Below, in pieces: positions 6,936 to 63,583 of a stretch of DNA of 64,000 nucleotides. The notes beneath the pieces are model-generated. The model ran no database searches. It saw nothing but the letters and a program-made list of their open reading frames with translations, and was not told the DNA's origin. The stretch's first letter is position 1; each line of letters starts with the position of its first letter. The position numbers and the translations under genes are program-made. The stretch comes from Trebouxia sp. TZW2008 (taxonomy: Eukaryota > Chlorophyta > Trebouxiophyceae > Trebouxiales > Trebouxiaceae), in contig BDIU01000094.1 of NCBI GenBank assembly GCA_002118135.1, positions 6,551-70,550 on the forward strand. The letters are read 5' to 3'.

Positions 6936-7053
6936 TCAGCGGCGCCTGCGCGCCAGAGCCCCAAGTGCCAAACCCCCCAGGGTTGCCACAGCAAGGGTGG
7001 TCTTGGGGTGTGCCAGGGCCTGATCCTTTACCCACCCAAATACCCCAGCCGCC
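6936..7053 (-). pseudogene. orphan inverted copy of the last exon of the kinase-pseudokinase gene
   Basis: 118 nt from an acceptor to TGA, the same length as the real terminal exon at 26866-26983. It encodes the same segment (AGVFGWVKDQALAHPK, then a hydrophobic stretch ending in RRRR) with only a few substitutions. No other kinase exon is found beside it on this strand. Upstream intron sequence up to about 7150 is also recognisably shared, so this is a DNA duplicate and not a retrocopy. It may be a relic of a second gene copy. Confidence 0.75.
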
Positions 7054-13951: not shown

Positions 13952-14058
13952 TATAACCTGCATGTGACACAATTTTGCTCAGAGCATAGAGCATACCTCA
14001 TGTGGTGATGTGAGGCAAGTCTGCAGGAGACGAAGGCAGCCAAGCGTAAGTAGCACAT

Positions 14059-26983: not shown

Positions 26984-27410
26984 TTGCATTGTGCCCTTTC
27001 AACTTCTAAGGCCATTCCCTTGTGACAGCCCTGGGGGCTGTGGCCCTAGGGGCTCTTGCACGCAGGCGCCGCTGACATCTCATGTGTCAACGGTTATGCT
27101 TGCAGCTATTTTGCTTTGTTTCAGAAGGCCTTGTATGAAGACATGATCATTTGATTGATCAGAACCATGCGCTTTCTGTTTGTGGGGCTCTGGCACGCAG
27201 GCGCCCTGACACTTTCTGTGTCAGCCGCCACGCTTGCTGCTAATTCCGTTTATGTTTCAGCAGTTGCTGTATGGAAACGGGAACATTCAGTTGATCACAC
27301 TTGAGGCTCTGGCACGCAGGCGCTGCTGACATCTTCTGTGTCAACTGCAATGCTTGCTGCTATTTCCCTACTCAAGAAGCCGCTGTATGACCACACATGA
27401 GCAATTGGTC
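26984..27410 (+). repeat. tandem degenerate copies of the terminal kinase exon
   Basis: GGGGCTYTKGCRCGCAGGCG recurs near 27047, 27184 and 27304 after the stop codon at 26983. The units are 90-140 bp and include the following TGTGTCAACNGYNATGCTTGC block. The inverted duplicate lies at 6491-6935. Confidence 0.85.
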
Positions 27411-35225: not shown

Positions 35226-38200
35226 ATGCTGAGTCGACTGCCGCAACGGTGGCGAGTCTTGACAGTTGCCCGTGACAGCGCGCGCGCCAGCTGCAGCTGC
35301 GCTTTTAGCTCTAGCAGTTTAGACAATACAAACAGGCTTGAAGATGGAGGAGCGGCTGCGTTGTCCCCGGCTTTCATCGAGAACAAGCGCTCGATGGACG
35401 GGCTGGTGCAACATCTGCACCATCTGTGTGGCCAAGCGGCGCTGGGTGGAGGTCAGAAAGCCATCCAAAGACACAAATCCAGAAGCAAGCTTTTGCCGCG
35501 GGAAAGGATTGCAGCCTTGCTAGATCCAGGCTCACCCTTTCTGGAGCTGTCACAATTAGCTGGGCACCAACTATATGGTCAGTGCCTTCACCACTCGCGG
35601 TCATTCTCCAACAATTTGTGAAACTGGGACAAAGAGGCAGCTTTTGATTTCGATGCAACAAAGATCATCATTGCGGACACAAGAAGTTCTGCCCAGCACA
35701 TGCCCCACTCGATGCAGGGCTTATGCTAGATTAGCAATCTGCATGGTGCATACATGAGACTTCTGCACCAAACAGACCCTATGAGCTTGTGCACAAATAT
35801 CCCAAAGGGATACTATCCCAAGAGGGTACCGGAAACTCCCCCTATACCCCTATACCCCTATGGTCGGCAAAGCAATTGACAACTTGCATGATCATGATGC
35901 AGGTAAAGAAGAGGTGCAGTCACGTGGTGTGGTGACAGGCATTGGTCAAGTCCACAGCAGAACTGTTGCCATAGTGGCAAATGATGCTCAAGGCATGTGA
36001 TGAAGTGTGTAGTTTATGATGATAGTGAATACTGTTGTTATGCTGCAGGCAAGGAAGAGGTACCCTCAGGAGATGTGGTGACAGGCATTGGTCAAGTCCA
36101 ATGCAAAACTGTTGCCATAACGGCAGATGACGCCTGATGCATGTGCTGGAATGTATGGTATGTGATGATAATGAATGATGTTGTCATGATGCAGGCAAAG
36201 AAGAGGTGCCCTCAGGTGGCGTCGTGACAGGCGTAGGTCAAGTCCACGGCAGAACTGTTGCCATAGTGGCAAATGATGCCACAGGTGAGCAAGCCACAAC
36301 AGACCGGTTTGGACCCGCTCAATCTTTCCTGTCCACAAATGCCCTAAATGTTCTGAACAAGCTCACGTATTTGGTCTTGATGCTGCAGTCAAAGGTGGTA
36401 CGTATTACCCAATCACAGTCAAGGTAGGTAAGCTACCTGCTTCTTTTGCCTTCACAGTCAATGCAGCTATGCAACAAAGCAACAGTGCACACCACAGTTG
36501 CTTTGCCGCACGCCTCATTGCAAGCTCGCTGCACTACTTGACCCAGCTGGTGCTGTATGTCAAGAGCAACAACAGCTGTGCTGTGCTGGTCGTTAACATG
36601 CCACACTGCACTGATGTCAGATACTCATGCTATGCCTGCTTTCACAGTAAACCTCCTGGGTTCACAATGCTGCTGAGCAACAGCAAGCGCACAGCATTTG
36701 CTCCAAGCCAGATTCGACTGTCTTCTGCACGGCAATGCACCCACTTTGACTGTGAGAATCTGACTGAAACCAGTCAAAGTGATAATGACTCAACTTTGCA
36801 TCTGATCAAGGCAAAGGCCTCCAGCAGCATAAGCTAAGGCTGCTTTGTTCATTGAATATCAGACTAATGGGCTATGCATTCTAGCACATATGGTATGTGT
36901 ACTTAGACCAAGTCCTGTCCAGACTCTTTTTCTGCTTGATCCATGGCTACTCTGCTGTTGCAGAAGCATCTGAGGCTACAGGAGATTGCTGAACAATGCA
37001 AGCTGCCTTGCATATATTTTGTAGACTCTGGAGGAGCCAATCTACCCAGACAGGCTGACGTCTTTCCGGACAGGTGAACGATTTTTGGAGCCAACTTGAC
37101 AAAACCAAATCAACAAAGCAAATAATAGTCTTGTCTATAGAATAATGGCTAGCAGGGTCGTGGAGTCTCACTAAGGCATGCGAACTATGACAAAGAATGA
37201 CAAACGATGATGATCATCTGCACCACATATACAGCACTCTGTTGGGGTCCCATACCTGCCTTCTGTTCAGTGCTGTTCTCTTGTTTCAATCACTGCTTGA
37301 GTGAAGACTGCTGGCGTTGACCGTGCCATGACCCCCAGCTTAATGAGCTGAAACAATGTATGCAGGCATCTGCATGGGCAAGCACCAAACCTGCAATATC
37401 AATCACACGCTTATGTTGGCAAGTTGACATGAGTGCTGCATTACATACAAAATGAGCATATGCTGAAGATGTTTTGCTCAGGTTACTAACGAGCACTCCT
37501 GCTGATTTTAGCAGTCACCATCTTACTGATTGTAAACTTACGGATACAGGTTGATTGACAACCCTTATGCTGCCCAAGTACAACACAGCTCCAGTTACAG
37601 TTGTCTAAACCATTCTTCCAACAAAGTCCAACCTGAGGCAGCGACTTTTAAGCAAAAGCTTGTTGAAGATGCACGCTTGTTACAATACAGGGATCACTTT
37701 GGGCGCATCTTCTACAATCAAGCCCGTATGTCTGCTGCTGGCATTTCCCAGATTGCTGTTGTCATGGGCTCCTGCACTGCTGGCGGAGCATATGTTCCGG
37801 CTATGGCTGATGAAAGCATCATTGTGCGAGGCAATGGCACTATCTTTTTAGGAGGGCCGCCCCTAGTCAAGGTAAGACAGAACTGTGCAGCAGACTTTTG
37901 ATGGTTGACTTGCTGATGAGAAGAGTGCAGCAGTTTGCTGTGGTCATGGGGTCATGCACTGCTGGCGGGGTCTACGTTCCGGCTATGGCTGATAAGAGCA
38001 TCATTGTGCGGGGCAATGGCACCATCTTTCTGGGGGGCCCGTCACTAGTCAAGGTTTGCAACCTCCACACATAAGGCTCATGATTGCATGGACAAACTGC
38101 ATCAGAGTGTTGTGGTCATGGGCTCCTGCACTGCTGGTGAGGCGTACATCCCAGCTATGGCTGGCGAGAGCATCATTGTGAGAGGCAATGGCACTATCTT

Positions 38201-41200
38201 TCCAGGGGGATCGCCACTTGTCAAGGTGTGCTGAAGATGTGACAGTCAAACTTGGCACTGACAGCTTGCTTCAGGTTGTCAAACCCACCTGCAGTGCAGG
38301 CTAACATGCTGCTGTGCTGATGCAAAGTGATTGCATGGTGCTGCTGTGGCTATTGTGAGCATCATTGTGCAACAAGATGACATCATGATTCCTTGGAATT
38401 TGACTCGGGTCGAGGCATGCCCATCATGCAACAGAGTGAAGAACTTTGTTGCTCAGTATGCAGTGCTGTCGCTGCAGACAGTGCTGCTGAGTGCTGTTTT
38501 GCTCATGTCTGGAAGGCATTTGCATGTCTCCTGATGGTTTACGCTACAACTGCTTCTGACATTGGCTGTGCAACCCCTTTGTTGGTCCGTCTGACAACAA
38601 ATGCAATTTTGGTAGCTGCACCGAGTGACTGGTGGTGACTGATGACGCAGGCAGCAACAGGCGAGGATGTAAGTGCTGAGGAGCTGGGAGGCGCTGAGCT
38701 GCATTGCACCACCTCAGGTGAGTCACACTCATCCTGATGAGTAGCCCCGCTTCAGATGACTCATACACTCACCCTGATTATCACCCTCCTCTGCACTTTA
38801 GTCACAAGCACCCTGATGAGTACCTCCTCTGCAATATAGTCACGCCCATCCTGACGAGTACCTGCCGTGCAGCTGAGGTACACTCACCTTGGCGGCCAGT
38901 CCAACTTGAGGTGAGTCTTGCTCACCCTGACAAGTAGCTCCATTTTGAGTGAGTCACAGCCGCTCTGGGTGACTGATGAGTAAGCTCACCTGAGGTAAGT
39001 CATACTTACCCTGATGAGCATATCTTGACATTCGCCACAGCCGCCCTAAGGACTTTCTCCATCTCAGGTGAGTCTGGCTCACCCCAATGACTTGTTGCAT
39101 TTGAGGTGAGTTACCTTCACTTCTCATGAAACCATTCATTGGGGTGAGTATGACTCGTCAGGGTTGTGCCACTCATGAGAGTCGAGTCAGACTCACCCTC
39201 GTGAGTCATGCATGGCATCTGAGTCAGAGTACTGAGTGCAGATCCAAGCGTGTCTGATGAAAGGAAATATCATTTTTACACATCACGTGCAATGACGTGT
39301 TTGATGTTGCACAACAGTGAATGCACGCACTTGATACACAGGGGAAAACTCTCCTGGTGCTGCTTCTGTGCAGGTGTCACAGATCATCTAGCTGAGAGCA
39401 AGCCTCATGCCATCAGCATTGCCCGTAACATTCTCAGCAACCTCAATATGGCTGCTGCTGGCCACATCTCATCAACCAGCTCAGTGATATGCCATGGCCT
39501 GATCACAATTGTACCAGACGCAATGTAAATGGTCAACATAAAATATATACCAACCCTGCTGCTGTTGTACTGCAGGGGTCACAGACCACCTGGCTGAAAG
39601 TGAGCCTCATGCCATCAGCATTGCCTGCAACATTTTCGGCAACCTCAACATGGCTGCTGCTGGTNNNNNNNNNNNNNNNNNNNNNNNNNNNNNNNNNNNN
39701 NNNNNNNNNNNNNNNNNNNNNNNNNNNNNNNNNNNNNNNNNNNNNNNNNNNNNNNNNNNNNNNNNNNNNNNAGCTGACCAAACACAATGCCCTGTTGACA
39801 ATATGCTTGGCATATGTGGCCAACGCAAATTGTGAATAACCCTGCCGCTGCTGTACTGCAGGTGTCACAGATCATTTGGCTGAAAGCGAGCCTCATGCCA
39901 TCAGCATTGCCCGCAACATCCTTGGCAACCTCAACATGGATGCTGCTGGGTATGCGTCATCAAGCAGCAGTCATGAATTGGCTAGAGCACCCCATTCTGC
40001 CCTTGGCAGGCAGGGCGTTCAGCCGCAAGAGCCCTCTGTAGGCGGCATGAGTCATCTACTGAATGGTGCTTGGGAGGAGCCATTGTTCCCTGCAGAACAG
40101 CTGAGAGGTAAATTTGACGATTATGAGTACGACTTCTTGTTCTGCCCTCGGCAAGCAGGGCTATCTCACACTTCATTGTTGCGGGTTGTATATCCCATCG
40201 TAAGAGCCCTCTGAAGGTATGAGTCATCTGCTGACTGATGCCTGGGAGGAGCCTTTGTTCCATGCTGAACAGCTCAGAGGTAACAGCAGCAAGTTTGGAA
40301 TCATTTCCAAGCGCAGGTGCTGGGGTTGTGTGGCTCATGTCCTGTCTGGCCATTAAAGTAACACATTCTTAGACAACAGAACTTGTCTTTGCAAAGCTGT
40401 GACAAGGTGCCTTTCATGTGGAGTCACAACCCCTGTTTGGTGCCCCTTGCAGCAAATAGGTGCTTTAGAGCTTGCATATAAATCTTGCCCATGTAAATGA
40501 TGTTGATTGATTGAGTGTTCAATGCCCTTGGTACAGATCACTACAAGTTTATGTCAACTGTGCAGCAAGAAGCTGCAGCACGTAGGCTTGGCTTGTGAGC
40601 AGCAGCAAAGGCAGTAGGGTAGCCCTAAATTAGCTGCAATAGAGAAGTTTAGATCAATTATAGAACTCAGACTCAATCTGGAATTGTTGTTCACACTGCA
40701 GGAGTGGTTCCAGCAGACCCTAGGAAACCTTGGGATGTCAGAGCAGTGCTGGCACGGCTGCTGGATGGCTCTAGATTTGATGAGTTCAAGAAGCAGTATG
40801 GCGCAACCCTAGTGACGGGGTTTGGCAAATTGTACGGCCAGCCTGTTGGGATTGTGGCAAACAATGGAGTGCTGTTTTCAGAATCTGCTCTCAAAGGTAC
40901 CTACCCACAATAAGCTTGAAACATCATCTGCTGTCAAAGGTTGGCGCAATTGGCTTGACAAAGAGGCAGAGTATTATTCTCTAGTGCAATATGGAGTGCA
41001 TCGCCATTTGGAGAGGATGACAACAAGGAGCGCACAGGCTCCAGAAGGACCACAGGAGCCTATCTTTTCAACTGTGTCAGTTCAATTGAGCATCTCTGGT
41101 GTGGTACAGTGAGCAATTTCTGATGCAATGTTGTGCCATCTCAATTTGCATCGCAGTGAAATCGTCACTGCCTGCTGCAATGGCCATTTTGCGAATCCAA

Positions 41201-43771
41201 CTTGTGTTTGGACTCAAAGCTGGTCGCGCCAGGCATTGAAAGGTTCTGGGCTACGCGTGAGCTTGTTTTGTGCTGCTGTTCACTCAACACAAGAGCCCAT
41301 TGATGTTCTTGCAGATCTTAGCGCTGCAGTTCATTGACGCTTTTGCAGAACATGACAGTTGTGGTTGCCTCTGGCATAGGGACTGCACAAAGCAAGATCA
41401 TGCAGCTGTGCCCTCACTGCCGCACTTCTTATGTCTTCTTGCAAACCTGACACTAAAGCTTTTCATGCTGTGCAGGTGCACATTATCTTCGGCTCTATGC
41501 TCAGCATGATGTTACATGCAATTTTCCACGGGAAGACAGCCTTTACAGTTTGCCTGCTACGCAGGCGCTCACTTTGTGCAGTTGTGTGCTCAGCGCGGCA
41601 CTCCATTGATCTTCTTGCAAAACATCATGGGCTTTATGGTAGGGCGCAAGTATGAGGCCGGCGGCATTGCTAAGGACGGCGCAAAAATGGTAATGGCTGT
41701 TGCAAACGCTAAGGTATGCTAAGTAAATCCGCATATCCTCTGTTGCATCTGCTCTTTCTCCTGAGATTGATCACATGAATTTCGCGTTCCTTGTATATTC
41801 ACGCTCAAGCCGACAGTGCTGATTGATAGCAGCTTCAAGCTGGCATCTCATGGCATGTGTGGCCATGTTTACAGAGCAAGCACCTGTTGTATCTCTTCTT
41901 GCTTCTCTGTTTCAAGCACATGTCGCCCATGCTTGGCTTTCATGCCCGTGACAATACATGTGTCCATTATGATGCTGATGCTGTAGTGCAGAAGCTGACA
42001 GTGCTGATAGGTGGCAGCTTTGGAGCTGGCAACCATGGCATGTGTGGCCAGGTTCACGGCGCCAGCACCTGTTGTATTGTTTCTTGCTTCTCTGGTTCAA
42101 ACACATGTTGCTCATGTTGCACTGTGGTTCCTGTGACAGTACATGGGCTCATCATGATGATCATCCTGTAGGTTCCCAAGCTGACAGTGCTGATTGGTGG
42201 CAGCTTTGGAGCCGGCAATCATGGCATTTGCGGCCAGATTGACAGCGCCAGCACCTGATGCGTCTCCTCGTTTTCTTTGGTTCAAGCACGTGTCACTCAT
42301 GTTGCACTGTTGTTCCTATGACAGTGCATGAGGTCATCATGGTGGTCATCCTGTAGGTGCCCAAGCTGACAGTGCTGATTGGTGGCAGCTTTGGAGCCAG
42401 CAATCATGGCATGTGTGGCCAGATTTACAGCGCCAGCACCTGTTGTATCTCTTCTTGCTTCTTTGGTTCAAGCACATGTCGTTCATGTTTTGCTTTCATT
42501 CCTGTGACATTGCGTGAATCCATCATGATGCTGATGCTGTAGGTGCCCAAGCTGACAGTGCTGATAGGTGGCAGCTTTGGAGCTGGCAACTACGGCATGT
42601 GTGGGCGAGCCTACAGTCCTAACTTCTTGTTCATGTGGCCAAATGCACGCATCAGCGTCATGGGAGGCGACCAAGCGGCTGGTGTCCTTGCTACAGTAAG
42701 TAAATTGTCTTCAGCTTGTCATGCATTCTAGTCGATTGCTTGCCCCCCCCCCTTGCCCCCCCTGCCCGCCCACATACCGGTGCAATTCAAAACCCTGTCC
42801 TGCTGATGTGGCCAAACGCACAATTCAGCATCGCGGGAGGCGACTAAGCGGCCGGCGTGCTTGCCACAGTGAGTAACATGCTGCTCACCTGATCACGCAT
42901 GGTACTTTAAATCTAACTTGCAGCGCTCATCCCGCCTCCCGCAAGCCATGTGACTCACAATTCTAGATCCTGTTAAGCTAGAAGCTTCCAGTAGGATTGG
43001 AACAAGCCCTTGCAAGCTCTCTTCAGAACTGAATGTTCAAGAAACAGGCCAGGTTTTGCAACCTAGCTAGGGGTCTACAGCCACCCGTTTGTGTTGAGTT
43101 GTCATGCTTGTGCCCTTCAGGTTGAAGACGCCAAGCGGAAGCGAGACGGACAGCCTTGGTCGGCTGAGGAGCAGGCAGAGTTCAAGAGTGCTATCAGCAG
43201 CAGGTGCTCTATATCATATGGCTCACTGTTAGGGCTGCTTCTGCATGCTGCTGCATCTTATGTTGGTCTCGTGTGAATATTTGCTGAGGAGGCTGCTTAC
43301 TTCAAAACCGCCATCATCAGCAGGTGCTGTACAGTCCAAGTACTTGGTGTGTGCCTTTGCCTGCTGCCATGTGTCACATGTGTCAACCCCTGTCCCATGA
43401 CATCCCACAGGTCGCTTTGCGTCAATGCATTGTACATAACACACTGTACACACTCTTGCAATATAGTGTGGCGCTACAGTAACATGCGCTGATGCAGCAC
43501 TTGACCTATGCTATATCACCAGAAAGCATGGCTTGCAGCTGCTGCAATATCTGTATTTAAATCAGCACCAAAGTTGTCAACCCCAGATGATCTTCTTGGC
43601 GGTGGTTTCTACAGGTATGACAAAGAAGGGGAGCCAGCATTTGCAAGTGCAAGGTTATGGGATGACGGGGTGATAGACCCTGCAGACACCAGGAGGGTTT
43701 TGGGACTCAGCCTTGCAGCTTCACTCAATGCGCCAATCAGCCCATCACACTATGGGGTCTTCAGAATGTGA
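35226..43771 (+). CDS. MCCB: methylcrotonyl-CoA carboxylase beta chain, mitochondrial
   Basis: Twelve exons: 35226-35577, 36195-36284, 36389-36423, 36964-37073, 37691-37871, 38651-38717, 39862-40107, 40702-40896, 41565-41713, 42543-42695, 43121-43203 and 43615-43771 (TGA). Phases match; 605 residues, near the family length. This carboxyltransferase subunit moves CO2 from biotin to 3-methylcrotonyl-CoA in leucine breakdown. Seen: an Arg/Ser/Ala N terminus fitting a mitochondrial presequence; [108 protein letters not shown]. The alpha subunit is not in the window. Several introns hold duplicated junctions. Exon 7 has two upstream in-frame rivals and lies next to the assembly gap. Confidence 0.93.
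35895..36194 (+). repeat. two acceptor-side copies of MCC beta exon 2
   Basis: Copies at 35904 and about 36055 resemble exon 2 (36195-36284). The first reads [20 protein letters not shown] but lacks a donor and runs to TGA; the second has a stop after ITADDA. Spacing is about 150 and 140 bp. Confidence 0.93.
37925..38230 (+). repeat. two donor-side copies of MCC beta exon 5
   Basis: The last 120 bp of exon 5 (from TGTCATGGGCTCCTGCACTG to CTAGTCAAG-GT) recur at about 37935-38055 and 38108-38226, spacing 175-180 bp. Both still read GSCTAG-x-Y-x-PAMA and keep a GT, but have no acceptor in phase. A more decayed fragment lies near 38340-38400. Confidence 0.93.
38718..39235 (+). repeat. minisatellite built from a 5' splice site
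   Basis: Starts at the donor of exon 6 (ACCTCAG-GTGAGTC). Blocks of TCAGGTGAGTC and CTCACCCTGATGAGTA alternate about eight times at 35-80 bp spacing. Many blocks keep a consensus donor, some in inverted orientation (ACTCACC). Confidence 0.85.
39368..39664 (+). repeat. two acceptor-side copies of MCC beta exon 7
   Basis: Copies begin after CAG at 39371 and 39577. Both read [17 protein letters not shown] in frame, with an intact acceptor. Copy 2 is cut by the assembly gap. The functional exon starts at 39862 and alone continues to the donor at 40107. Confidence 0.92.
39665..39771. other. assembly gap (107 N)
   Basis: A run of N inside the repeated exon-7 array of the MCC beta gene. The repeat probably blocked assembly, so the true copy number here is unknown. 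Confidence 0.99.
40192..40286 (+). repeat. donor-side copy of MCC beta exon 7 end
   Basis: AAGAGCCCTCTG...GAGTCATCTGCTGA...GAACAGCTCAGAG-GT repeats the end of exon 7 about 180 bp downstream, with a changed frame. Confidence 0.88.
41240..41345 (+). repeat. acceptor-side copy of MCC beta exon 9
   Basis: A decayed version of the exon 9 start (TTTGTGC...CCATTGATGTTCTTGCA) lies upstream of the functional exon at 41565; several codons are lost. Confidence 0.75.
41806..42542 (+). repeat. four tandem copies of MCC beta exon 10 start, period about 186 bp
   Basis: CTGACAGTGCTGATNGGTGGCAGC occurs near 41811, 41994, 42181, 42366 and (functional) 42552, so steps are 183-187 bp. Each unit includes intron sequence with TGATGCTGTAG-type acceptors. 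Decoy units diverge after GGCATGTGTGGCCAG and lose the donor. Confidence 0.95.
42778..42875 (+). repeat. donor-side copy of MCC beta exon 10 end
   Basis: Reads [18 protein letters not shown] then a stop, AAGVLAT and GTGAGT; a copy of the end of exon 10 about 175 bp downstream, with the stop inside. Confidence 0.92.
43228..43330 (+). repeat. donor-side copy of MCC beta exon 11 end
   Basis: GCTGAGGAGGCTGCTTACTTC...ATCATCAGCAGGTGCTGT resembles the end of exon 11 with its donor, about 120 bp downstream. Confidence 0.85.
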
Positions 43772-44672
43772 CATCTGTGTGTTTTTGAGACTACAACAGC
43801 TGCTCAGAATCTTGTGTTGTGCAACAATTTTGTGCCAAGCTGTTGCTGTGCTAGGCGGTGAGGCCTTTAGTCTTTGTCTTTGTTGCCAAATTTCTTCCTA
43901 GGCATGTGCGAGAACCAAGCCAAAGTTTTGATACAGATGCTGCCAAGTGGTTGTGCTGAAACATGCAATAAACACGCTAGAAACAGAGATCATGATGGTG
44001 TGCTTGTTCATCATTCGATTCTGACGGTGACACAGATCCAGAGGTGCAGATTCTAGAAGCGCTTCCTCGGATCCTTGTGAGACGAGAGCATCACAAAACC
44101 TGCTCAGCCTGGTCCTGGGCTCGAAATGGCCCAAACTGGGCTGCAAAAACAGGAGCATGCTGCACAAATCAAAACAATTGCCAGTCCAGGCATGCATATA
44201 TCTCTTGAGCACAGCATGCACAGCGCGATAGTAAGCTACAATCTGTTGAATGACCCTCAAAGCTGTACAAACTTGCAGTTCCAGCAAAGTGTCAAAGATG
44301 ACGTGATGGTCAAACAACTCAACATTCACAATTTCAGGGCAGCCTGCCTCTTGCGTCAGCACAACTTTGAGTTTGAGCACTGATCCTGCACTGACAAAAA
44401 CAACAGCAGAAATCAATGTACTCGTGCAGTTAAACTTTTGGTTGATGGGAGAATGCTGCAAGCACCAGCAAGCAGGCTCTGACAAATGACTGTGGCCATC
44501 CTCATATACACGCTGTTATGAGCAGTTGCTACTAAACTGGTCTCCTGCAGAATGCAGAAAGATCTGATGCCGGCTTCATTACGTTGACTCATGACCCACA
44601 GGTCATCAGGACACCTTGCGCTTTCTGCATAGGTGAGATCAAGGCATGCTCGTCACAGCCTTTTGATTTGCA
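43772..44672. other. convergent intergenic region of the two carboxylase genes
   Basis: 901 bp between two stop codons. It contains a minus-strand frame of 195 codons (44485-43898) that I cannot assign; it lacks motifs and overlaps a plus-strand frame of similar quality. It may be noncoding 3' sequence. Confidence 0.45.
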
Positions 44673-44966
44673 TCATTCCTCTGCCCTCTGTGAATTCGTG
44701 TCATCTGTCTTTTGCAGAGTCAACAGAACGTCTCCCTGCTGAGCAAGTTGCGAGCTGGCTGTCAAAATCTCACGCACTGTGCCAGCATGTGGTGCTGTGA
44801 CAGGATATTCCATTTTCATGGCTTCAAGAATGACCAGATTTTGGCCTTCCTGGACTTGATCCCCTGACTCCACTATCACTTCCCAGACATTCGCTGTAAA
44901 TGTTGCCGTCACTTCTGTGGCATCTTTTGGGGCTTCTGCTCCTAAGTTGCCATCTTGCTTTTTATC
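44673..44966 (-). other. biotin-attachment exon of urea carboxylase
   Basis: Last exon, 97 residues and TGA. It holds EAMKME, whose Lys carries biotin, about 57 residues from the exon start, with flanking [17 protein letters not shown] and [13 protein letters not shown] of the usual lipoyl/biotinyl fold. The segment before it ([15 protein letters not shown]) is a flexible Ala/Pro hinge. Confidence 0.94.
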
Positions 44967-53900: not shown

Positions 53901-56900
53901 ATGTGCACAATATAGCTAGCGTTAGTTGGCGACTTTGCATTTAGTTCCAGACAAATAATGACGCAGACAAGCTAAATTTGAGAAGTATCTCTGAATCCTA
54001 ATGATTTTTTCCAATCCTAGTGATTATTTCCAGCAGTGTCTAGAAACAAAAAGCAGACGATGCACCTGCAGGCCACCAAGCTTTCCACCAGGAAAAGTTG
54101 ACCTGCTGCCAAGATACAAAGGCACGTCCAGGCCGCCGCCGACCGCAATGTACCCTCTACACCCCGCCGGCTGCCCTTCGGACTTCCCATTGGCCGACTG
54201 CCCTTCGGCTGTCCCATCGGCTGGCCGGCTGCCTTTCGACGCCTGCCCTTCGACTTTCCCGATGGCCAGAAGGCTCCCTTTCGGGGCTTTGAAGCTCTGC
54301 CAAAGGGGAAGCGGTTTGCCGTCTAGTGTGGCCTTGAACGCAGCGCCGGTCACTGCTACAATCAGGTCTGTGTGGAAGCGAAGTGTTGGTCCTGTCACAC
54401 CAGACACAACATATTTGAAGGTCCAGGTCAGATCTTGAGCAGAGTAAAAACATGCCATGATGCGACCAGGTCGCAAGAAACACCTAGACCTGTTGGCAGG
54501 AAGGGCACAACACCAATTTCTGTTCTAGGCTTGCCTACAGACTGGCAGACACTGTGCTGATCTTGGCAAGGCATGCTGTGCACGCTGTGCAGATATTGGC
54601 GAGGCATGCTGGGCATGCCGTTGCGCAAATGGAGGGATGTAATTTGCATGCCGTGTCTTGCATGCCAAGCGCTGTTGGCATTGCTATGCCATCGGCAAAA
54701 AGCATCTGCACAGACGGCTTCAACCACAGGTACACTGCACCTGACAGGGTGAATTCCAGGCCAGCAGTCCCTTCATCATTGTTCCATGTAGTGTTGTCCA
54801 AGGGAAAGGACTAAAGAGCAACACATGCATGCTATGCACGCTGCACATGCTGTGCATGTTATATGCGCTGTGCATGCTGTGTATGTTGTGCTTCCCTTGA
54901 CAAGGCGACTTCCATGCCAGCAGCCCCTTCATCATTGCCCGCCAAGGCATTAGCCAGCCTAAAGGCAAACGACTGAAATGCAATAGGTGCATGCAATGCA
55001 CACAGGCCATGCTGCGCACGCTGCGCATGCTATGTATGCTGTGCTTCACCTGACAAGGTGATCTCCAGGCCTGCAGCCCCTTCATCATTGCCGACCAGGG
55101 CGTTAGCCAGCCTGAAGGCAAAGGAGTCCATTGGGCCGGAAGGGGGGACCCCAATGTGCCATAGCTTTGTCCTGCCAGGCCAGTCCTGCAGATTCACATT
55201 CAAATGCCAAAAAAGTTCATGTATCTTGCACATCATGGTCATGACGGGTGGTTGTCAGGCCATCTTACAGTAGAGTGCGTTGGACATGGTCAGTTCATAT
55301 GATTACGCACTGTCTGAGAGTGCCGCTGCTTTGCTCTGCCAGGGAATTGCTTCAAAATCACAATATACCCTTCACGACATTTGCGCATTGTCTTTTCTGC
55401 TGTAACAACACGCAGTATGCAGACATGCCCTGTAGGCTTGTGCACACACCTGCACAGTGTTGTTCATGCTGGGCTGCACAAAAAATGGCTGCGAGGGGAA
55501 AATGCAAACTTCCCTCAGACCTGAAGTCGTCTTATACCAAAGTTTGTTGACTAATTACCTGAGTCACGGTCAGGCAATGTTGCTCATGCTTTTCAGGCAC
55601 ACTTGCTTGAGGCTGTTCGTGACACGTCAGAAGCTTGCAAAAGATTTGAAGCTTGAGAAACATGTGACCTGCATAGTGGTGTTCATGCCAGGTATCACAA
55701 CCTCCATGCCGTGAGGCAAGAAGGCCAGCTCCTCCTTCTAGAAGAGCGAGATTGTATCAGCAGCGGCAAAGCGTGGGTCAGCAACGACACATGCCAGCAG
55801 GGGCCCACAAGTGCACAATGTCAAGGGCAAATCAACCCAAGCTGTTCATGGCATTCTGCAGTTGTTCTTGAGCTTAAGGGCAACTGACCTGCACAGTGGT
55901 ACTCATGCCGTGCAGGACCAACATTTGCCCTGTGGAAAGCAGGACTTGAGCCACAGACATCCAGTGCCTGTGCTAGAACAGCTAGTGTGTTGTGAACAGC
56001 ATCATCACAGTGATAACTGAAGACGACTGACCTGCACAGTGGTGTTCATGCCAGGCTCCACAACCTCAATGCCATGGGGAGAGAACTGTAGCTCCTTAAG
56101 AAAGCTGGTGGTTGTATCGCCAGCAGCAAAGCGCGGGTCAGCAATGACGCATGCAAGGTAGTCCTTGTTGCTGGGCACACCCATCACCTACACCAGCCCA
56201 AGCAGCTCAGCACACGCTCCACAAGACATTGCGATCCTGTTGTAATCAGGTCAGGTGAAATTGCGCCAAGGTAAATTGCGGTAAGGCCGGCTCAGGTCAG
56301 GTCAAACCCCAGGCAGGCAGGCAGGCAATACAGAGTCAGCACAAAATTTGGCAACACAAGCAAGCGCTTCGTCAGGTGATGGCCATACAGAGATCTTCTC
56401 CAGTGCTGACCTGAGTCTCTGCAAGAGCGTTGCTCATCTTCTTGGTGGCAGCTGGGCGGTCAGGGGCAAAGACCATAAGCTTGGCCAGCAGTGAGTCATA
56501 GTGGGGGCTGATGGTGGTGCCCCTCTCTATCCAGCTGTCCACCCTCACCCCTGCATTGTGAACTGTATCAGTAGACAGCAACATATCACTTCAATGGCAA
56601 CAGTTGCTGCTGCTACGCAGTGCTTGGTCAGAAGCAATGAACTGATGGTTGTGCTCCTCTGTACCCAGCTGTCCACTCTAACTCCTGCATCAGTGGACTG
56701 CATTAGAAGACAGGATCACCCCTGCATCAGAAAGCCGGCCGCACATCATGACAGCAAACACAATAGATTCGGCCATCAGTAATAGTGGGGGCTTATAGTG
56801 GTGCCCCTCTGTACCCAGCTGCCCATTGACCCCTGCAAGGATTCACTATATCAGTAGACATGAACTGATCTTTTCTGTACTGTGAACCTGAGCGGGCGTA

Positions 56901-58336
56901 TGCTGTGGTGAAAGTCACTGTGTATGTAGTCTGATTACCATTGCACTATGCTTTGTGTCCAGCTCAGCTGGGCAGCAGAATGCACGTACCATGCAAGCTT
57001 CACAGGGTTGTGCGAGTGCTTGAATGCAAAGCTCATGACAAGCAAGGACCAACATGCAGACATTGGTGAGTATCGCAGGAGCTGCTGCACACATTTACCA
57101 TGTAAACAAGAAAGGTGGCTGATTGATTATATCTGGGCAACGGCTTATGACAAGTACTTGACACCTACTTGAGACACACATGGCGCCTGTATTCCAGTTA
57201 CACAACACCTATATGACAACATACATAGGCAGGACCTATGTGAGACAAATATGGCACCTGTCAAGTACAAGCAGTGTGTACGATCAGTACACAACCATAT
57301 GGCACCTACCCGGGCTGCCTCTTTAGACAGATGCTCTCGCTATGACGCTAATGGCATAGACTGTCCTGTTTTTCTTTTCATGCACCTACACGAGACAAAC
57401 ATAACCCCTGCGTGGCATCTACATGAGACCATGCATAAGCAGCACCAACCTGTATCATGGCTGCACTGTGGCCACTCGACAAGGGCCAAAGTGCCGGCTG
57501 ATGGGGCAAAGTCCTTAAAGGGGTCTTCAGCGTTGATCCTCACTTCAATGGCATGACCCTTGTGACTTGGCTTGAAATCCACTAGGTTCTCACCCTGTGA
57601 TCAGTCACAGGATTCAAGATATGGGCAGGCAGGGCAGGGCAGGGCAGGGCAGGGCAGGGCAGGGCAGGGCAGGGCAGGGCAGGGCAAGTTTGCTACAAAC
57701 AGACATTGCAATTTCTTGAAGACTGCAAGCGCGGCAGTACCTGGAAGCTAGTGCGCTGCGGCTGAATGCACCCTGCAGAGATCATAGAATGTCACCAGCA
57801 AGTATGCAAAGACCGCACATAAAATCGACAAAGGCAGCAATGCCTTGAAGCCTGGGGACTTCAATCTTGAAGTGGCAAGCCACCACATCCACATGTTCAA
57901 TTTCAAGTCAATCACTTCACGATTAACAGTAGAATGGAACCAGCAACGCAAGCAATTAGTGGTACCTTGAAGCCTGGGCACTGGAGCTTGAGCTGCCAAG
58001 CCACCAGGTCCACCCTGTTTACCATCTCTGTGATGCCGTGCTCCACCTACAGCCAAAGTGTCAAGATCATTGACAATGTCCCGTCTGACTTGCATTCTCA
58101 GCCACTTTATTGTCATTGCATTCAAGCTTCAGACAGTGTTTTGTGAGCTGACATGTTGCTCTTGAGCACGGCATGTGTGGGTGTTAACAATCTATCAAAG
58201 TGTTGCCTGGACTGAAGTGAGCACTGGCAAGCATTGTCACATAGTTTCTAGCATTCAGTCAGTAAGCAACAAAGGCAGCCTGGCACTTGCTTCAACCTGC
58301 GTATCCATATGAGCATCCTTCGTGCTGACACATTGC

Positions 58337-58394
<58 letters not shown>

Positions 58395-61300
58395 GCTATC
58401 CCTGTTGCTGCTGTCTTTGTGGCAACAAGTACTTTTGTGTCTGGACAGAGCAGAAGAGCACTTATGGCCACATGGAAAGCAGCCGCAGGGACAGCAGCAG
58501 CAGCAGCGATATGTCAGCACCAAGTGCAGCGTGAAGGTTGCTTATGTGAATACTCAGGTTGGAGCAAAGGCCAAGCTACCTTTGTTGCTTGTTGACTGCA
58601 TGCCAGACACTGCATCACAAAGCTTGCGAATGTTGAGTCAGAGCCCAGCCAATACACAGGTAGATGGCACCAACACATGCTGTACATGCTGTGCAATGTC
58701 AATCTACTGACTGATGCAAAACAGACACAATGGGTTTGCTTGTGATCTTGAGTCTTGCCTCACCTGCAAGCGAGTATTGACTTCCAGGAAGTAAAACTTG
58801 GCGGTGTCATCATCTACCAGGAACTCTACTGTGCCAGCAGACCTGTACTTGGCTGCAGCACCCAAACGCTGTGCAGCTGCGGCAAGCTCCTCACGCAAGT
58901 TGGAACTTTGCTTTTCTGCAGCAGGCACACAGACCCTTCGTATGCAATGTGAGTGACAAGTCAAGTGAGGGCAATGAAGTTCTGTACACGATCTGGCTCT
59001 GGAAGAGCCTAAGCGCTGTGCAGCAGCAGCAAGTTGGCAGTGTCATTGTGCACTAGAAGATCTACTGTGCCAGTTGATCGGTACTTGGCTGCAGCACCCA
59101 GACGCTGTGCAGCAGCAGCTAGCTCTCCTCTCAACTCAGATCCTTGCTTCTCTGCAGCACTCTCATCTCTGTCACGTGTGTGACATATGCAATGTGATAG
59201 AAACACCACACGAGCAACTTTCCTAGTAAAGATTGTTGCCTGGCTGCAGTACCTAGGCGCTGTGGAGCTGCAGCAAGCTCCTCATGCAACTCTGACCCTT
59301 GCTTCTCTGCAGTTTCAAAGTAACGTCATCATACGTAGCATGGCTCACAAGGCATGTGGCTGCAGTGCCCTGTGTAGAACGCAGGTCTGGCCAAGCCTAG
59401 GCGCTGTGCAGCAGCAGCAACCTCCTCATGCAATATGGAACTTTGCTTTTCTGCAGCATTTGCATATTTGTGTGCTCTCCAACAAAGGTTGAATAGTTGC
59501 ACAGCAATCTCATCTGCATTCCGAGTGCAAGGAAACTAGGTGCTGTGCAGCAGCAGCAAGCTCCTCACGCAAGTTGGAACTCTGCTCTCTGCAGCATGCA
59601 CACAAAACCTTCATACGCAATATGAATGCCAACGCAAATGACGGCCATATAAGTCTGTACAGGATCTACTTCTGGAAGAGCTTAAGCGCTTTGCAGCTGC
59701 AGCAAGCTCCTCACGCAATTGTGACCCTTGCTTCTCTTTAATGATGACTTGTATGTGTCAGGTGTGCTACTTAGCTTGCTACATGATGACAAACCAAGAG
59801 ACAGGTCAATCAACACGGCCATGGCATGTATAATATTGAGTTACAACAGTGTACAAGAAACACTTTTGCTTTCAGGACAACAGCAGCCAGCAGTTGACAA
59901 GAAGGGAGCAAGTGATAAGCCCGGCAAAGGCAAGAAGCAGAAGCAGAAAGGCGCTTATGCCCCACAGAGGCTACTTCCTGCAGTGTGCAAGGTGACTCCG
60001 CACTTCAAAAATACATGAGCAGCACGATGTTGACTGTGCCAGCACACCAATTTTGGGGTGCAGCGCCTAGATGCTGTGCAACTGCAGCAAGCCTCTCTCT
60101 CAACTCAGATTCTTGCTTGTCTGCGGCAAACTTCTCACCTACATGTTACGCTTGCTTCATGCAGTCAGGGCACCTTTCCAAAATTAGCTGTGCAGCGGCA
60201 AAGTAACCAAGATGATCAGAGGAGTATATCTACACGTTTCATCTGCTCTGAAACTCGTATATCACCAACATAAGGCGAAGGGGTTTCTCCACAGTCTTAT
60301 GATGGCGCCTCTGAGTGGAGCGCTCCCATTTCACGAAAGCCTTGCCCTCTGAATGTCAAGGTGCCTTTCTACAGGCTGAATAATGCTTGCTCCAATGGAC
60401 AAGTGCCTTACCCACGTAAGGCGAAGGGGTCTCCTCCACAATTTTCTGGTGCCGCCGCTGAATGGAGCACTCCCGCTCCACAAAGGTCACCATGTTGCCT
60501 TGGCCGTCCCCAAACATCTGCACCTCAATATGGCGCGCCCGCTGTACATACTTCTCAATAAACACCCCAGCATCTCCAAAATTGGCCTTGCCTTGCCTGG
60601 AAAAATGCAAAACACCTGAGTCCAAACCCATGTGCAGCTCACTGTGGTGCGCCCGCTGCACATACTTCTCTATAAACACTCCAGCATCCCCAAAGTTGGC
60701 TTTGCCTTGCCTGAGCAGAACAAGTAGTTGCCTTGCTGAACACACATGTGCAAAGTCCTGTTTCACAGGAGCACCCATGCTGCTTTGGCCGTCACAAAAC
60801 ATCTGCACCTGAATGTGGTGCCCGCGCTGCACATACTTCTCAATGAACCCTACAGCATCTCTGGCTTTGCCTTGCCTGGGAGCAGAAAACATGGAGTCGT
60901 ACTGCAGCTGCAGGTGAAGGTTGATGTGTTTAGGCGTCATGGAGGCTGCAGTTCAGCAGAGAGGATGCAAGGACGCGCTGGGCACGCTGTTGCAGAAATC
61001 GGATGCAAGTTGCAAGCATGTGCATCAACCGCATGTGCGTCTCAGCAGACAGGCAGCAAGGGGTCAGGGACAAACATGGACAGAACTCTTATGGCAGCTC
61101 TTTTGCGCAGCCCCCTTACCAGTGCACCCTTCAAATGAGTAACAAGGAAACAGAACAAGCAGATGTGATCAGGGCTGAAAAGTCAGCTGTGCTTGGTCAA
61201 TACGCAGCACTAAAAACGTGCTATCAGCAGCATTCGCAGGCATTCTCACATTTAGGTATGCACGGTCCATCTCCAGAGATACTAGGCAGACAACCGTGTG

Positions 61301-63583
61301 CAAGGACCTCGCCTTTCTTCATGCACAGGTTAAATGATTTAGGATAGCACAGGATCGAACTGGTTGGAGACAGTTGATTGCTCCTGTATGTACCTAGCTG
61401 GGCCTGCTGAGCCTGCCTGGCGTATATCAAGAATCGAATGAAGGAATGAAATGGAAACAATATGCAGAGATGTGGTGCAGTAGTTCTTCAGAGTGATTGA
61501 AGTGCTGTCAAAACAGAGTCAGCAGCTTCACCTGCAGGCAGTCTCAAAATTCTTGACCACATCTTCTTGGGAGTGACAGATATAGATGCCAATTCCTCCT
61601 CCTCCGCCGGTTGCCTTCAGCAACACTGGAAACCCAACCTGTGGTCAAAATTGCCAAACTTTGCAGTCCAAAGCAACGACAAAAGCTTGGGCATGAGAAT
61701 GTCTGCAGACACTGAATAGTAATCAAGTCATGCACATGGAGATAATTGAAGCAGTGATTTACAGGTTGGGAAAGCATCTGCAGCTAAGGCTGTTGCTGAA
61801 GCTGCTGCGTCTGTGCTGTCAAGGCAAGGAACTCAGGTTTGCTTGTGAAACCTGCCGGCTGGACAGCACAGGTGTATGTTATGCATGCTTCTTTCAGACT
61901 ATAGACTCAGCACACTGGCGGTGCATGAGCTGACATGTTCTGGCGCATGCTGGGACTGTCAGGACTGTCTCTTTTGTGTGTGCTTGGGACATGTAGAGAG
62001 AAGAGCGCCACAGCTACAACGGCATTGAACACGCCTTCATAGTCCTGGTGCGATTCTAGCTTGAAGACATGTGGCTAGAGCTGCACTGGCGGTAAAGTTT
62101 GAACAGCTGTCTGGCCCCAATGCATACCTGGTCAGCTTCATCCTTTGCTTGTTCCACAGAACTCAACAAGCCGCTCCCTGTACACACCCGTCCAAAGCAT
62201 TTCAGATGCTTGCTGCTTATGCAAAAGTGCAATCAGCGTCTGACACTGGCATTGCAATATTGCAGCGCATTCTGAATGTGACAGAAGGCATGTCTAGAAG
62301 GCATGTCCAGAAGGCATGTCTAGAAGGCAAGTCTGATGTGAGCTGAGCTGAGTGCATGATTGTTCAGGCAAGCTGCTGAAAGTCTTACTCTTCAGCACAG
62401 TTTCACTGCTGGGCGATTGGTGTAGTCTACCCAAAGTACCCAAAGTACAAGCAGCAAAGCAACCACATTGCTTTGGACTGATATGCGGGACATGCAACTA
62501 ATTGCCAACAGCGCTCAGCATAATGTTCCGCGCCTTAGATGCATTAAGCCTGGCTTGAACAGCTGACCTGCCAATATGGGCACTTTGGCATTCTTTGCAA
62601 AAGCTCTGGCATCATGTTTGCGGCTGAACAGGCGCATGGTGTCTGACTTGGGTCCTAGAAATGCAATGCCAGACTGCTCACACAGATCAACAAATTCTGC
62701 GTTCTCACTGAGGAAGCCGTATCCCGGATGGACAGCATTGCACCTGCAAGCAGCACAAGTGTGATGCGTGGTGTCTGACTTTGGCCCCAGAAACGCAGTT
62801 CTGAACTGCTCACACCAATCATCAAACTCTGCATTCTCACTGAGGAAGCCACAGCCTGGATGGACAGCATTGCACTCACTCACAGCATGAGAATGATTGC
62901 CACGCCTCTACGCTGAGCGCCAGAGGAAGTGGTGTGCTGAGTGCTGCTGGTCTGCCGCTGCTTCACAGCAGGGGCTAACAGCTAATGATTCTGCACTGTA
63001 GACAGCACGACTCTAACTATTATGCAGCTGCATTGTGTGCAAATAGCAGTGCAGAGCAGTGCTCAGTGATGTGCGTGCACTGCAGTGTGCTGATTGACAT
63101 GGGCCAACATCTAGAGATTCTGGATGATGGCTGCTGTCATTAGTACTGCTGTGGCTAGTGCAGCAGCTGCTAGAGCGGTTGACTCATTGCAGCATGCAGT
63201 GAAGGTGAGTGGGAAGTTGGAGACACATGGGGTGATCAGTCATGGGAATGGAGCGGGCTTACTTTGTAGATTTGGCCACTTCAAGCAGTTTCTGAGCATT
63301 TGTGTACTCCTTGGGAGAGGCTCCAAGGCAAACAGCCTCATCTCCATCTTTAACATGCAGAGACAGGGCGTCTGGCCCAGTGAAGACCACAACGGTCTGG
63401 ATCCCTAATGCCTTTGCAGATCTGATGACACGTCGAGCTATTTCGCCCCTGTTTGCTATCAGTAATTTCGCTTGCACCTGCACTCCTGCAGGTGAGCAAT
63501 CTCATGTTGACCGGCTTCTTGGCATACCGCGATTGTTGCGGTTGGATTGTTACTCGTGCCCCTGTGCGTGCAGCGCGTTTCAT
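44673..63583 (-). CDS. DUR1: urea carboxylase (biotin-dependent, ATP-hydrolysing)
   Basis: 25 exons, minus strand: 63583-63554, 63477-63263, 62743-62568, 62177-62128, 61638-61532, 60596-60412, 58915-58764, 58046-57966, 57594-57450, 56550-56411, 56187-56032, 55185-55050, 54391-54066, 53814-53709, 53205-53088, 52712-52585, 51899-51759, 50983-50764, 50315-50102, 48381-48219, 47934-47829, 47329-47119, 46401-46298, 45479-45341 and 44966-44673. Every phase agrees; 1280 residues. The enzyme carboxylates urea to allophanate, the first step of the urea amidolyase route. Domain order fits: biotin carboxylase ([54 protein letters not shown]), KipA-like ([17 protein letters not shown]), KipI-like ([40 protein letters not shown]) and biotinyl domain ([12 protein letters not shown]). 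The start exon is the least certain. Most introns carry duplicated junctions. Confidence 0.94.
45022..45135 (-). repeat. acceptor-side copy of the biotinyl exon start
   Basis: Minus-strand copy of the first 30 codons of the last exon (encoding [19 protein letters not shown]), upstream of the functional exon at 44966. Confidence 0.9.
45590..46015 (-). repeat. several acceptor-side copies of urea carboxylase exon 24 start
   Basis: The plus-strand block TGTTGTACTCCCTGCAGCAC, marking the exon 24 acceptor, recurs with changes near 45625, 45717, 45808, 45897 and 45990 (steps of about 90 bp). None stays open. Confidence 0.8.
47440..47705 (-). repeat. two acceptor-side copies of urea carboxylase exon 22 start
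   Basis: Blocks around 47465-47540 and 47640-47705 match the exon 22 start (GTACCATCCTCTGTGAAAGT...TATGCCTGCAT on the plus strand), about 175-190 bp apart. Adjacent AAGAAGAAG-rich intron sequence is copied as well. Confidence 0.85.
48480..48710 (-). repeat. two acceptor-side copies of urea carboxylase exon 20 start
   Basis: A copy at 48490-48570 still reads [16 protein letters not shown] before diverging; a second near 48655-48700 retains only the THGAIQ part. The functional exon starts at 48381. Confidence 0.9.
48764..50070 (-). repeat. array of donor-side copies of urea carboxylase exon 19 end
   Basis: TGCTGCTCAGTYTGAAGCAAYGTCTGCAGC recurs near 50112 (functional), 49939, 49746, 49549, 49160 and further decayed near 48970 and 48775. 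Clear steps are 173, 193 and 197 bp. Copies extend into [10 protein letters not shown] and [10 protein letters not shown] codons but have frame breaks. Confidence 0.88.
49203..49375. mobile_element. 173-bp insertion with telomere-like motif
   Basis: It interrupts one unit of the exon-19 array between GGCAAGAG and GCACTCAG. The insert is AT-rich and contains a small palindrome (AGGGTTTGAAAACCCT) and TAGGGTTTAGGGTTT at 49297-49311. On the minus strand GGTTTTGATTCC resembles a tRNA B box. It could be a small nonautonomous element or end-joining filler. Confidence 0.5.
50400..50545 (-). repeat. acceptor-side copy of urea carboxylase exon 19 start
   Basis: Repeats the exon 19 start and first 40 codons (encoding [15 protein letters not shown] with a shifted tail), 210-220 bp upstream of the functional exon. 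Confidence 0.88.
51225..51758 (-). repeat. three donor-side copies of urea carboxylase exon 17 end, period 175 bp
   Basis: TGTTTGCTTGAA (plus strand) starts at 51241, 51416, 51591 and 51766 (functional): three steps of exactly 175 bp. Copies carry the last 40 nt of the exon and, in the two nearer ones, an intact CCCTAG-GTACAGC donor. Confidence 0.96.
51990..52265 (-). repeat. acceptor-side copies of urea carboxylase exon 17 start
   Basis: The exon 17 start (encoding [17 protein letters not shown]) recurs near 52025, 52150 and 52240 in increasingly decayed form ([30 protein letters not shown]). Confidence 0.9.
53295..53415 (-). repeat. acceptor-side copy of urea carboxylase exon 15
   Basis: Nearly full-length copy encoding [24 protein letters not shown], 210 bp upstream (minus-strand sense) of the functional exon. 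Confidence 0.92.
54165..54275 (-). repeat. coding minisatellite in the KipA domain of urea carboxylase
   Basis: Within exon 13 a roughly 30-bp unit around GCCCTTCGGCTGTCCCATCGG repeats three to four times in frame. It encodes a Gly/Ser/Glu/Gln-rich insert ([27 protein letters not shown]) between LLAIG and [10 protein letters not shown], where the family has a short loop. Confidence 0.8.
54720..55000 (-). repeat. two donor-side copies of urea carboxylase exon 12 end
   Basis: Copies near 54898-54972 and 54735-54800 repeat the end of exon 12 ([20 protein letters not shown]) as [16 protein letters not shown] and [14 protein letters not shown]. Between them lie GTGCATGCTGTGCATGTT runs. Confidence 0.92.
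55440..55945 (-). repeat. donor-side copies of urea carboxylase exon 11 end
   Basis: CTGCACAGTGGTGTTCATGCC (plus strand) recurs near 55887, 55672 and, decayed, 55568 and 55450. The copy at 55665-55800 covers 135 bp of the exon but has an in-frame stop. Confidence 0.9.
56620..56860 (-). repeat. two acceptor-side copies of urea carboxylase exon 10 start
   Basis: GTGGTGCCCCTCTCTATCCAGCTGTCCACCC (plus strand) recurs near 56645-56695 and 56785-56835, about 130 bp apart, with the first acceptor altered. Confidence 0.88.
57165..57445. repeat. intronic repeat with GAGACAAAYATGGCRCCTG
   Basis: About four copies at 70-90 bp spacing in the intron downstream of exon 9, the last touching its donor. No long coding copy. 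Confidence 0.6.
57624..57686. repeat. GGCAG pentanucleotide microsatellite
   Basis: About a dozen perfect units in the intron upstream of exon 9. Confidence 0.97.
57838..57935 (-). repeat. donor-side copy of urea carboxylase exon 8
   Basis: Copy reading VEIDLKLN...[13 protein letters not shown] with frame changes, ending CTTCAAG-GC where the functional exon has CTTCAAG-GT. Confidence 0.85.
58338..58397. repeat. CTG/CAG microsatellite
   Basis: About 19 trinucleotide units with one CTA interruption, inside the intron between exons 7 and 8 of urea carboxylase. Confidence 0.97.
59010..60135 (-). repeat. six acceptor-side copies of urea carboxylase exon 7
   Basis: The block GCACCCARRCGCTGTGCAGC...AGCTCCTCACGCAA (plus strand) recurs near 59093, 59255, 59398, 59540, 59690 and 60065, besides the functional one at 58860. 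The nearest copy still encodes [25 protein letters not shown]. Steps are about 145-160 bp, with two larger gaps. Confidence 0.92.
60240..60380 (-). repeat. donor-side copy of urea carboxylase exon 6 end
   Basis: GGCGAAGGGGTTTCTCCACA...GAGTGGAGCGCTCCC repeats the end of exon 6 ([21 protein letters not shown]) about 150 bp downstream, with codons lost. Confidence 0.88.
60618..60900 (-). repeat. two acceptor-side copies of urea carboxylase exon 6 start
   Basis: Copies near 60640-60715 ([20 protein letters not shown]) and 60785-60882 ([20 protein letters not shown]) lie upstream in the minus-strand sense. The first is unmutated for 20 codons. Confidence 0.93.
61329..61455 (-). repeat. SINE-like dispersed repeat, copy 3, with pol III box motifs
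   Basis: Best copy of the family. Minus strand: GGCTCAGCAGG (61414-61404, A-box-like) and GTTCGATCC (61360-61352, B-box consensus) about 45 nt apart. Other copies at 2052-2158 and 33145-33262. Confidence 0.55.
62283..62335. repeat. GAAGGCATGTCTA minisatellite
   Basis: Four units of about 14-15 bp (AGAAGGCATGTCTAG) in the intron between exons 3 and 4 of urea carboxylase. Confidence 0.9.
62762..62885 (-). repeat. acceptor-side copy of urea carboxylase exon 3 start
   Basis: Encodes [20 protein letters not shown] then diverges; about 135 bp upstream of the functional exon (62743). The key YGF became CGF. Confidence 0.94.

Follow-up and report, generated by a model that had tools for sequence, protein, structure and literature searches.

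The question raised by this locus is why the introns of its genes hold decayed copies of the edges of the neighbouring exons, and whether such copies amount to more than random duplication and selection would leave behind. The window, which is the whole 64,000-nucleotide stretch that was analysed, lies at positions 6551-70550 of its contig in an assembly of 68,541,624 bases in 527 contigs from Trebouxia, a lichen alga. It contains two genes for biotin-dependent enzymes that are tail-to-tail neighbours with a gap of about 0.9 kb (window 35226-63486). The gene for methylcrotonoyl-CoA carboxylase beta (MCC-beta) occupies 35226..43768 on the forward strand with 12 exons, and that for urea carboxylase (UC) occupies 44676..63486 on the reverse strand with 24 exons and an uncertain 5' end. 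Both were modelled by spliced alignment using our own script with algal proteins as references, among them, for UC, protein P0121 of Trebouxia sp. C0010; neither model has an internal stop, and both coding lengths are divisible by 3. The MCC-beta protein matches human MCCB in the PDB at 770 bits, its closest relatives among the named matches being Trebouxia homologues at 80-87% identity. The closest named matches of the UC protein are from Trebouxia spp. as well (81% and 83% over 71% of the query), and its biotinyl domain (PF00364) is recognised. UC exon 12 contains a 72-bp in-frame stretch with tandem repeats (54171-54242); the alignment passed over it as if it were a GC-AG intron, and it may be a coding insertion.

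Copies of exon edges in the window

A self-BLAST of the window (E<1e-4) gave 116 direct repeat pairs, 103 of these within 1.5 kb, and only 8 inverted pairs, none with arms closer together than 5 kb; three dinucleotide shuffles of the window gave no pairs at all. The copies are real and more than chance would produce. It is true that tandem repeats assemble poorly and that one family includes 107 N (39665-39771). The copies, however, diverge by about 6-33%, their differences track codon position, and the pattern fits the geometry of splicing, and we give next to no weight to an assembly artefact.

When each exon with 60 bp on either side was aligned to its own gene at E<=1e-3, MCC-beta and UC yielded 53 pairs of exon edge and copy, 6 of which end within the exon before reaching the junction. 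The exons with copies are 2, 5, 7, 9 (weak), 10 and 11 of MCC-beta and 2, 5, 6, 7, 9, 10, 11, 14, 16, 18, 19, 21, 23 and 24 of UC. All 14 UC exons named in a first-pass annotation of this DNA were recovered, its numbers running one ahead of those of our model. For MCC-beta the annotation held up at exons 2, 5, 7, 10 and 11 and only weakly at exon 9 (E 5.6e-4, inside the exon) and exon 6, where the intron from the donor on has only 19-56-bp matches.

On the forward strand, MCC-beta exon 2 (36195-36284) has two upstream copies on its acceptor side (35892..36134; period 146, 81-91% identity), and exon 5 (37691-37871) two downstream copies on its donor side (37931..38227; nearest period 182, 82-86%). 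Exon 7 (39862-40107) is copied on both sides, with two upstream copies of the acceptor side at 39353..39663 (82-89%), next to the N stretch, and one downstream copy of the donor side at 40199..40283 (84%). So is exon 10 (42543-42695), whose four acceptor-side upstream copies form a tandem array seen with TRF (41803..42418; period 185, 80-88%) and whose donor side has a downstream copy at 42798..42876 (80%). The donor-side downstream copy of exon 11 (43121-43203), at 43283..43331 (76%, E 3e-5), lies outside the stricter count.

In UC, all on the reverse strand, upstream copies of the acceptor side are found for exon 2 (62568-62743), with one at 62766..62875 (83%); exon 5 (60412-60596), with two at 60622..60879 (81-86%); exon 6 (58764-58915), with six at 59031..60128 (74-89%); and exon 9 (56411-56550), with two at 56642..56860 (81-82%). 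Downstream copies of the donor side belong to exon 5, with one at 60264..60327 (82%); exon 7 (57966-58046), with one at 57843..57892 (80%); exon 10 (56032-56187), with three at 55448..55909 (77-93%); and exon 11 (55050-55185), with two at 54735..54972 (79-87%). The upstream copy of exon 14 (53088-53205), at 53309..53398, is 84% identical with gaps and 78% without; the gapped match is confined to the exon, and the ungapped one (53097-53207) extends beyond the acceptor. Exon 16 (51759-51899) has two acceptor-side upstream copies at 51958..52189 (74-83%) and a donor-side array of three downstream copies at 51224..51665 (period 175, 77-84%), and exon 18 (50102-50315) has one acceptor-side upstream copy at 50417..50547 (85%) and six donor-side downstream copies at 48759..50041 (74-86%). 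The remaining families are upstream copies of acceptor sides: two for exon 19 (48219-48381) at 48478..48698 (86-94%, the farther one within the exon), two for exon 21 (47119-47329) at 47472..47706 (76-83%), two for exon 23 (45341-45479) at 45596..45769 (73-86%, the farther one weak at E 3e-4), and one for exon 24 (44676-44966) at 45061..45132 (82%, starting 3 bp inside the exon). The two exceptions in UC are intron-only repeat clusters, likewise on the reverse strand, at 45620-45976 (period 188) and 46045-46216 (period 100).

The same pattern had been claimed for two further genes of the window. The claim was not confirmed for Mpv17, where positions 1-4000 hold only two 31-35-bp matches, none of them at the Pfam-matched exon (PF04117). 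The claim for a kinase gene fared better in part: there is a clear array at 19565-20292 (period 136), but a Pfam search with three pieces did not bear out the kinase identity. The array sits at the 3' edge of an open frame (19286-19672) with several copies downstream, and it looks like a donor-side family in a putative kinase gene.

Dispersed repeats are present in the window as well. The longest one found there consists of two inverted copies of about 1.29 kb (7460-8739 and 12703-13953) that are 88% identical and perhaps represent a mobile element. A second inverted repeat (6497-7361 and 26404-27424) carries a tandem array with periods of 135-139 in each copy, so that some tandem arrays of the window belong to a dispersed element. 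Short repeats are common to the distant sites 2006-2129, 33155-33259 and 61299-61421, the last in a UC intron, and to 1696-1774 and 29500-29577.

Geometry, selection and decay in four genes

The counts that follow come from four genes of this one genome, namely MCC-beta, UC, acetyl-CoA carboxylase (ACC) and RPC2. ACC was taken as the locus richest in clusters, and RPC2 since its search listing hinted at copies. A scan of 15 arbitrarily placed 10-kb loci (150 kb in all) found 48 clusters, or 3.2 per 10 kb at 9% coverage, with two or fewer in 7 of the loci; for comparison, positions 40-60 kb of the window have 9-10 clusters per 10 kb. The richest arbitrary locus, with 9 clusters, proved to be ACC, which has 39 exons once the neighbouring sequence is joined. 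Many of its boundaries are common to four reference proteins, and several exons were set by hand, mainly in two parts of the joined sequence, near 11.4-15.3 kb and near 21.4-21.7 kb. Four unedited ACC models free of stops give 16-17 anchored against 3-4 intron-only clusters. Three of these automatic models have 1-2 repeat arms that enclose an entire predicted exon, and two of them also have a pair linking two predicted exons; such rule-breaking cases probably stem from predicted exons that are very short. A search with PF00562 led to three multi-exon loci, among them RPC2, which has 17 exons, 9 anchored clusters and 1 intron-only cluster, a count that leaves out one cluster upstream of the first exon. 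Weak extra PF00562 matches lie beside true exons at C309:68856-68978 and C46:162991-163092, one with stops, and are probably decayed exon copies visible at the protein level. The 23 matches to PF00501 included no clear tandem copies of exons, and a search with PF10598 found one exon.

We also tried a coding score as a classifier of clusters and dropped it, for exon-derived and other clusters were inseparable at the arbitrary loci. In calibration the anchored clusters (n=39) had a median of 7.8 and the intron-only ones (n=4) scored 2.2-3.7; in the other loci together with window 1-35000, 49 clusters had a median of 5.9, barely different from the background of 5.1. The score had been trained on the hand-edited ACC coding sequence, which was partly out of frame (53 stops).

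The four genes contain 122 repeat pairs in 54 local direct-repeat clusters, 48 of which overlap an exon edge. With contact defined as an overlap of at least 15 bp, 87 pairs touch an exon and the other 35 match copy to copy or are intron-only. Among these 87 there is none that links two exons, none that takes in a whole exon and none that crosses a junction with the copy on its wrong side, whereas rotating the exon map 2000 times led to 31.4 ± 5.5 such violations, with a minimum of 13. Clusters that touch an exon and obey this one-sided rule number 48, as against 17.2 ± 3.6 (maximum 32) under rotation. Copied sides are rare at short exons (4 of 41 for exons <120 bp; 37 of 101 for exons >=150 bp), and the two sides of an exon are copied independently, since internal exons with 0, 1 and 2 copied sides number 43, 34 and 7, where 42.9, 34.2 and 6.8 are expected.

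Purifying selection explains this geometry well. The one-sided rule arises because only junction-spanning duplications leave the mRNA intact, and short exons are rarely copied because duplications of a whole exon are filtered out; the very look of anchoring, with one junction and an intron-side copy, is what such selection must leave. A process of random duplication would thus be filtered into the same one-sided rule, the same deficit at short exons and the same independence of exon sides. Selection accounts for the geometry but not for the excess of clusters at exon edges, to which we return below.

The repeats qualify as short tandem duplications, being head-to-tail with periods of 61-360 bp, and the window has no local inverted pairs. 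Over 49 families, 29 on acceptor and 20 on donor sides, the unit has a median length of 164 bp (IQR 138-195, range 61-360, 5-95% range about 115-280 bp). About half of it is exon and half intron, the exon share running from 0.15 to 0.87 with a median of 0.48. The homology extends to the intron part of the unit in 15 of 25 families, where at most 10 of 200 shuffles scored as well; in the other 10, such as UC 5, 14, 18 acceptor and 24, that part is without significant homology. Within the exon the homology breaks off sharply and at scattered points, as examined in 40 families. The annotation had read the repeats as tandem duplications across the splice junction, which stands, and as positioned on the splice site itself, which does not: site-specific anchoring is ruled out by the scattered breakpoints and by a junction that may lie anywhere in the unit. 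A junction at random positions is also what random duplication would produce. Microhomology at the breakpoints averages 1.47 nt against 0.91 nt in controls, a difference carried by two long matches, beyond which there is no clear excess at the sensitivity that decay allows. Duplications from patch-mediated repair of double-strand breaks, which would originate in paired nicks, are not known to need microhomology at their breakpoints.

The decay of the copies bears on whether they have any function. Mismatches between exon and copy fall mostly on third codon positions (168/1274, 127/1278 and 342/1274 for positions one to three), which hinted at selection on the copies. The hint does not hold up once the changes are assigned in 13 multi-copy families: substitutions private to the copies spread nearly evenly (48/52/64), while those private to the exon do not (11/3/29). 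The copies are thus shown to decay neutrally while the exons stay constrained. We therefore think it very unlikely that the copies serve as alternative or decoy splice sites, or as alternative exon ends, under selection. Such a role could draw on the 68 of 84 copies that keep the AG or GT dinucleotide (2 of 86 arms are short of the edge) and on the 35 of 50 that have neither stop nor frameshift. Against it, 15 of the 50 do have one, the copies are without the exon's other splice site, and neutral decay at 10% per site would be expected to spare the dinucleotide about as often.

Exon-edge excess and its possible origin

The claim that the copies go beyond ordinary random repeats is borne out in the four genes, where the association with exons is stronger than a random process predicts. 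Anchored and intron-only clusters stand at 39:5 in three genes and at 48:6 (89%) with the fourth; for 48 of 54 the binomial tail comes to 1.6e-9 if p=0.5 is assumed and to 1.9e-5 if p=0.63. The competing account is that duplications fell at random and only look anchored, through the combined effect of purifying selection, of exon-derived copies being easier to detect and of introns that were once shorter. The filter alone, as estimated from rotation minus the rule-breakers, would leave about 19 intron-only and about 17 junction-spanning clusters, i.e., only about 47% anchored. In our simulation, duplications fell at random sites and passed through the selection filter, introns and copies decayed neutrally while exons stayed constrained, and repeats were detected with BLAST in the same way. 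Settings nearest in coverage gave anchored shares of 0.47-0.50 (12 replicates each, highest 0.63), and those at a coverage of 0.46-0.51 gave 0.54-0.61. Detection does not remove the excess either: with exons masked, so that introns are compared only with introns, there are still 17 exon-derived against 5 intron-only clusters, and the masked simulation nearest in coverage gave a share of 0.41-0.51.

The outcome depends on the history of the introns. If they had about the length they have now, or grew while the duplications went on, the bias-free share comes to 0.47-0.61 and not the observed 0.89; spreading insertions over time gave 0.51-0.59 (highest replicate 0.69). Introns held constant at 157-266 bp gave shares of 79-96%, and introns growing by duplication from 60-150 bp over a short time gave 82-96%, but at a coverage of 0.71-0.89 against about 0.25 observed. 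One bias-free history does match in these three respects: introns of 100 bp, with unrelated insertions coming after all duplications, yield a share of 0.88, a coverage of 0.21 and an intron length of 529. Late insertion, however, pushes the copies away from their exons and puts the nearest one more than 250 bp off in 35% (100-bp introns) or 30% (150-bp introns) of cases; only 4 of 49 are so distant in the four genes, and a model with no insertions gives 0.07. The late-insertion, short-intron model is disfavoured, by these copy distances alone. Introns free of copies are long as well (medians 346-540), which also speaks against random placement, and we judge that account unlikely as a whole.

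The copies are exon-bound beyond random duplication plus selection, under most histories tried. The excess over random placement suggests that duplications were seeded preferentially with one end in exon DNA; this preference is a statistical inference from the four genes. We consider it probable that recurrent small head-to-tail duplications, seeded in exons, sent their outer copy into the intron, where it decayed neutrally. A duplication over an acceptor would place the segment made of intron end, AG and exon start twice in a row, and the downstream, inner copy would continue into the rest of the exon; one over a donor would double the segment of exon end, GT and intron start, and the upstream, inner copy would be used. 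We infer this use of the inner copy in splicing. On either side the mRNA would stay the same, while the outer copy would turn intronic, lengthen the intron and decay. Duplications within an exon or over a whole exon would alter the protein and be lost. As for what starts them, our guess is that exon DNA suffers staggered nicks, spaced by about one nucleosome, which are then filled in and rejoined. Such nicks would fit the unit length of about one nucleosome, the random position of the junction and the preference for exons, on which nucleosomes are enriched.

Pair identities of 67-94% over the four genes agree with the earlier claim that the sets differ in age, and the spread suggests that the process is ongoing. 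A wider and more doubtful reading, to which we lean less than even, is that in Trebouxia-type algae the edges of exons form a mutational hot spot where tandem duplications of nucleosome length keep arising and continually lengthen introns genome-wide; splicing would then have to find the true site among near-identical decoys.

It is worth considering what the copies mean for the introns themselves. Intron lengthening is usually ascribed to transposons and unspecified insertions. In the four genes, junction copies are present in 45 of 88 introns, and about a quarter of the intron bases (12,054 of 48,056) fall within detectable repeats. Introns with copies are the longer ones in each gene, with medians (with/without) of 698/540, 685/382, 532/346 and 584/427. 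Part of each copy-bearing intron is built from its own gene's exons, and most repeat clusters can be traced to the gene's own exon edges, and the mutations behind intron length can thereby be put to a direct test. A neutral copy beside a constrained exon also offers a built-in clock and a clean signature of selection. The near-identical decoy junctions may mislead gene predictors and protein-to-genome aligners, and they provide a natural setting in which to study the choice that the spliceosome makes between duplicated sites.

Comparison with known systems

Copies of exon sequence in a neighbouring intron are known from mutually exclusive tandem exons. The algal copies share this placement but miss one splice site and decay near-neutrally, and in the gene models on which the counts rest none of the arms takes in an entire exon, although 1-2 arms do so in three alternative ACC models; mutually exclusive exons, of which OGDH 4a/4b is an example in a passage of PMC7969005, were rejected. 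Introners, which are mobile intron-making elements, are reported in 5% of the species searched according to a passage in PMC9860276. It is nevertheless highly improbable that they, or some other dispersed repeat, are the source: the algal copies bear coding sequence of the local exon, and MCC exon 2, the one exon used as a probe, had only 3 local matches in the whole genome, itself and two neighbours, with very common words skipped.

Intron gain as proposed by Rogers (1989), through a duplicated exon segment with AGGT, is described in a passage of PMC4974935. It resembles our case as an intragenic tandem duplication made neutral by splicing, but there a purely exonic unit creates a new intron. 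The algal unit contains intron and one existing junction, the gene models used have no pair that links two exons, and the number of intron positions does not grow; this model was set aside. In rice, the relevant passage of PMC7407515 attributes short tandem insertions of 10-1000 bp to patch-mediated repair of double-strand breaks (Vaughn and Bennetzen 2014), a proposal which the nick model outlined above resembles; that passage draws no tie to exon edges.

As for related algae, the word "tandem" is absent from the main texts of two Trebouxia genome papers (PMC11523091, PMC12712428) and of the Asterochloris paper (PMC6652019). No report of recurrent exon-edge duplication was found in the literature searched, which covered few subscription papers and is weak evidence of absence. 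The nearest relative is the potato RdRp gene PGSC0003DMG402000361, in which, as the passage in PMC4974935 has it, a tandem duplication over an intron-exon boundary took in the 3' part of the intron and the 5' part of the next exon, and the splice signals were inherited. That is a single young case, however, which created a new intron and inserted exon sequence, whereas the outer copies in the alga lie in an existing intron, leave the model protein unchanged and are seen at 49 of the 176 junctions that the four genes have. Tandem duplication across one junction was thus already known from potato; what appears to be new is duplication across splice junctions that is recurrent and biased towards exons.
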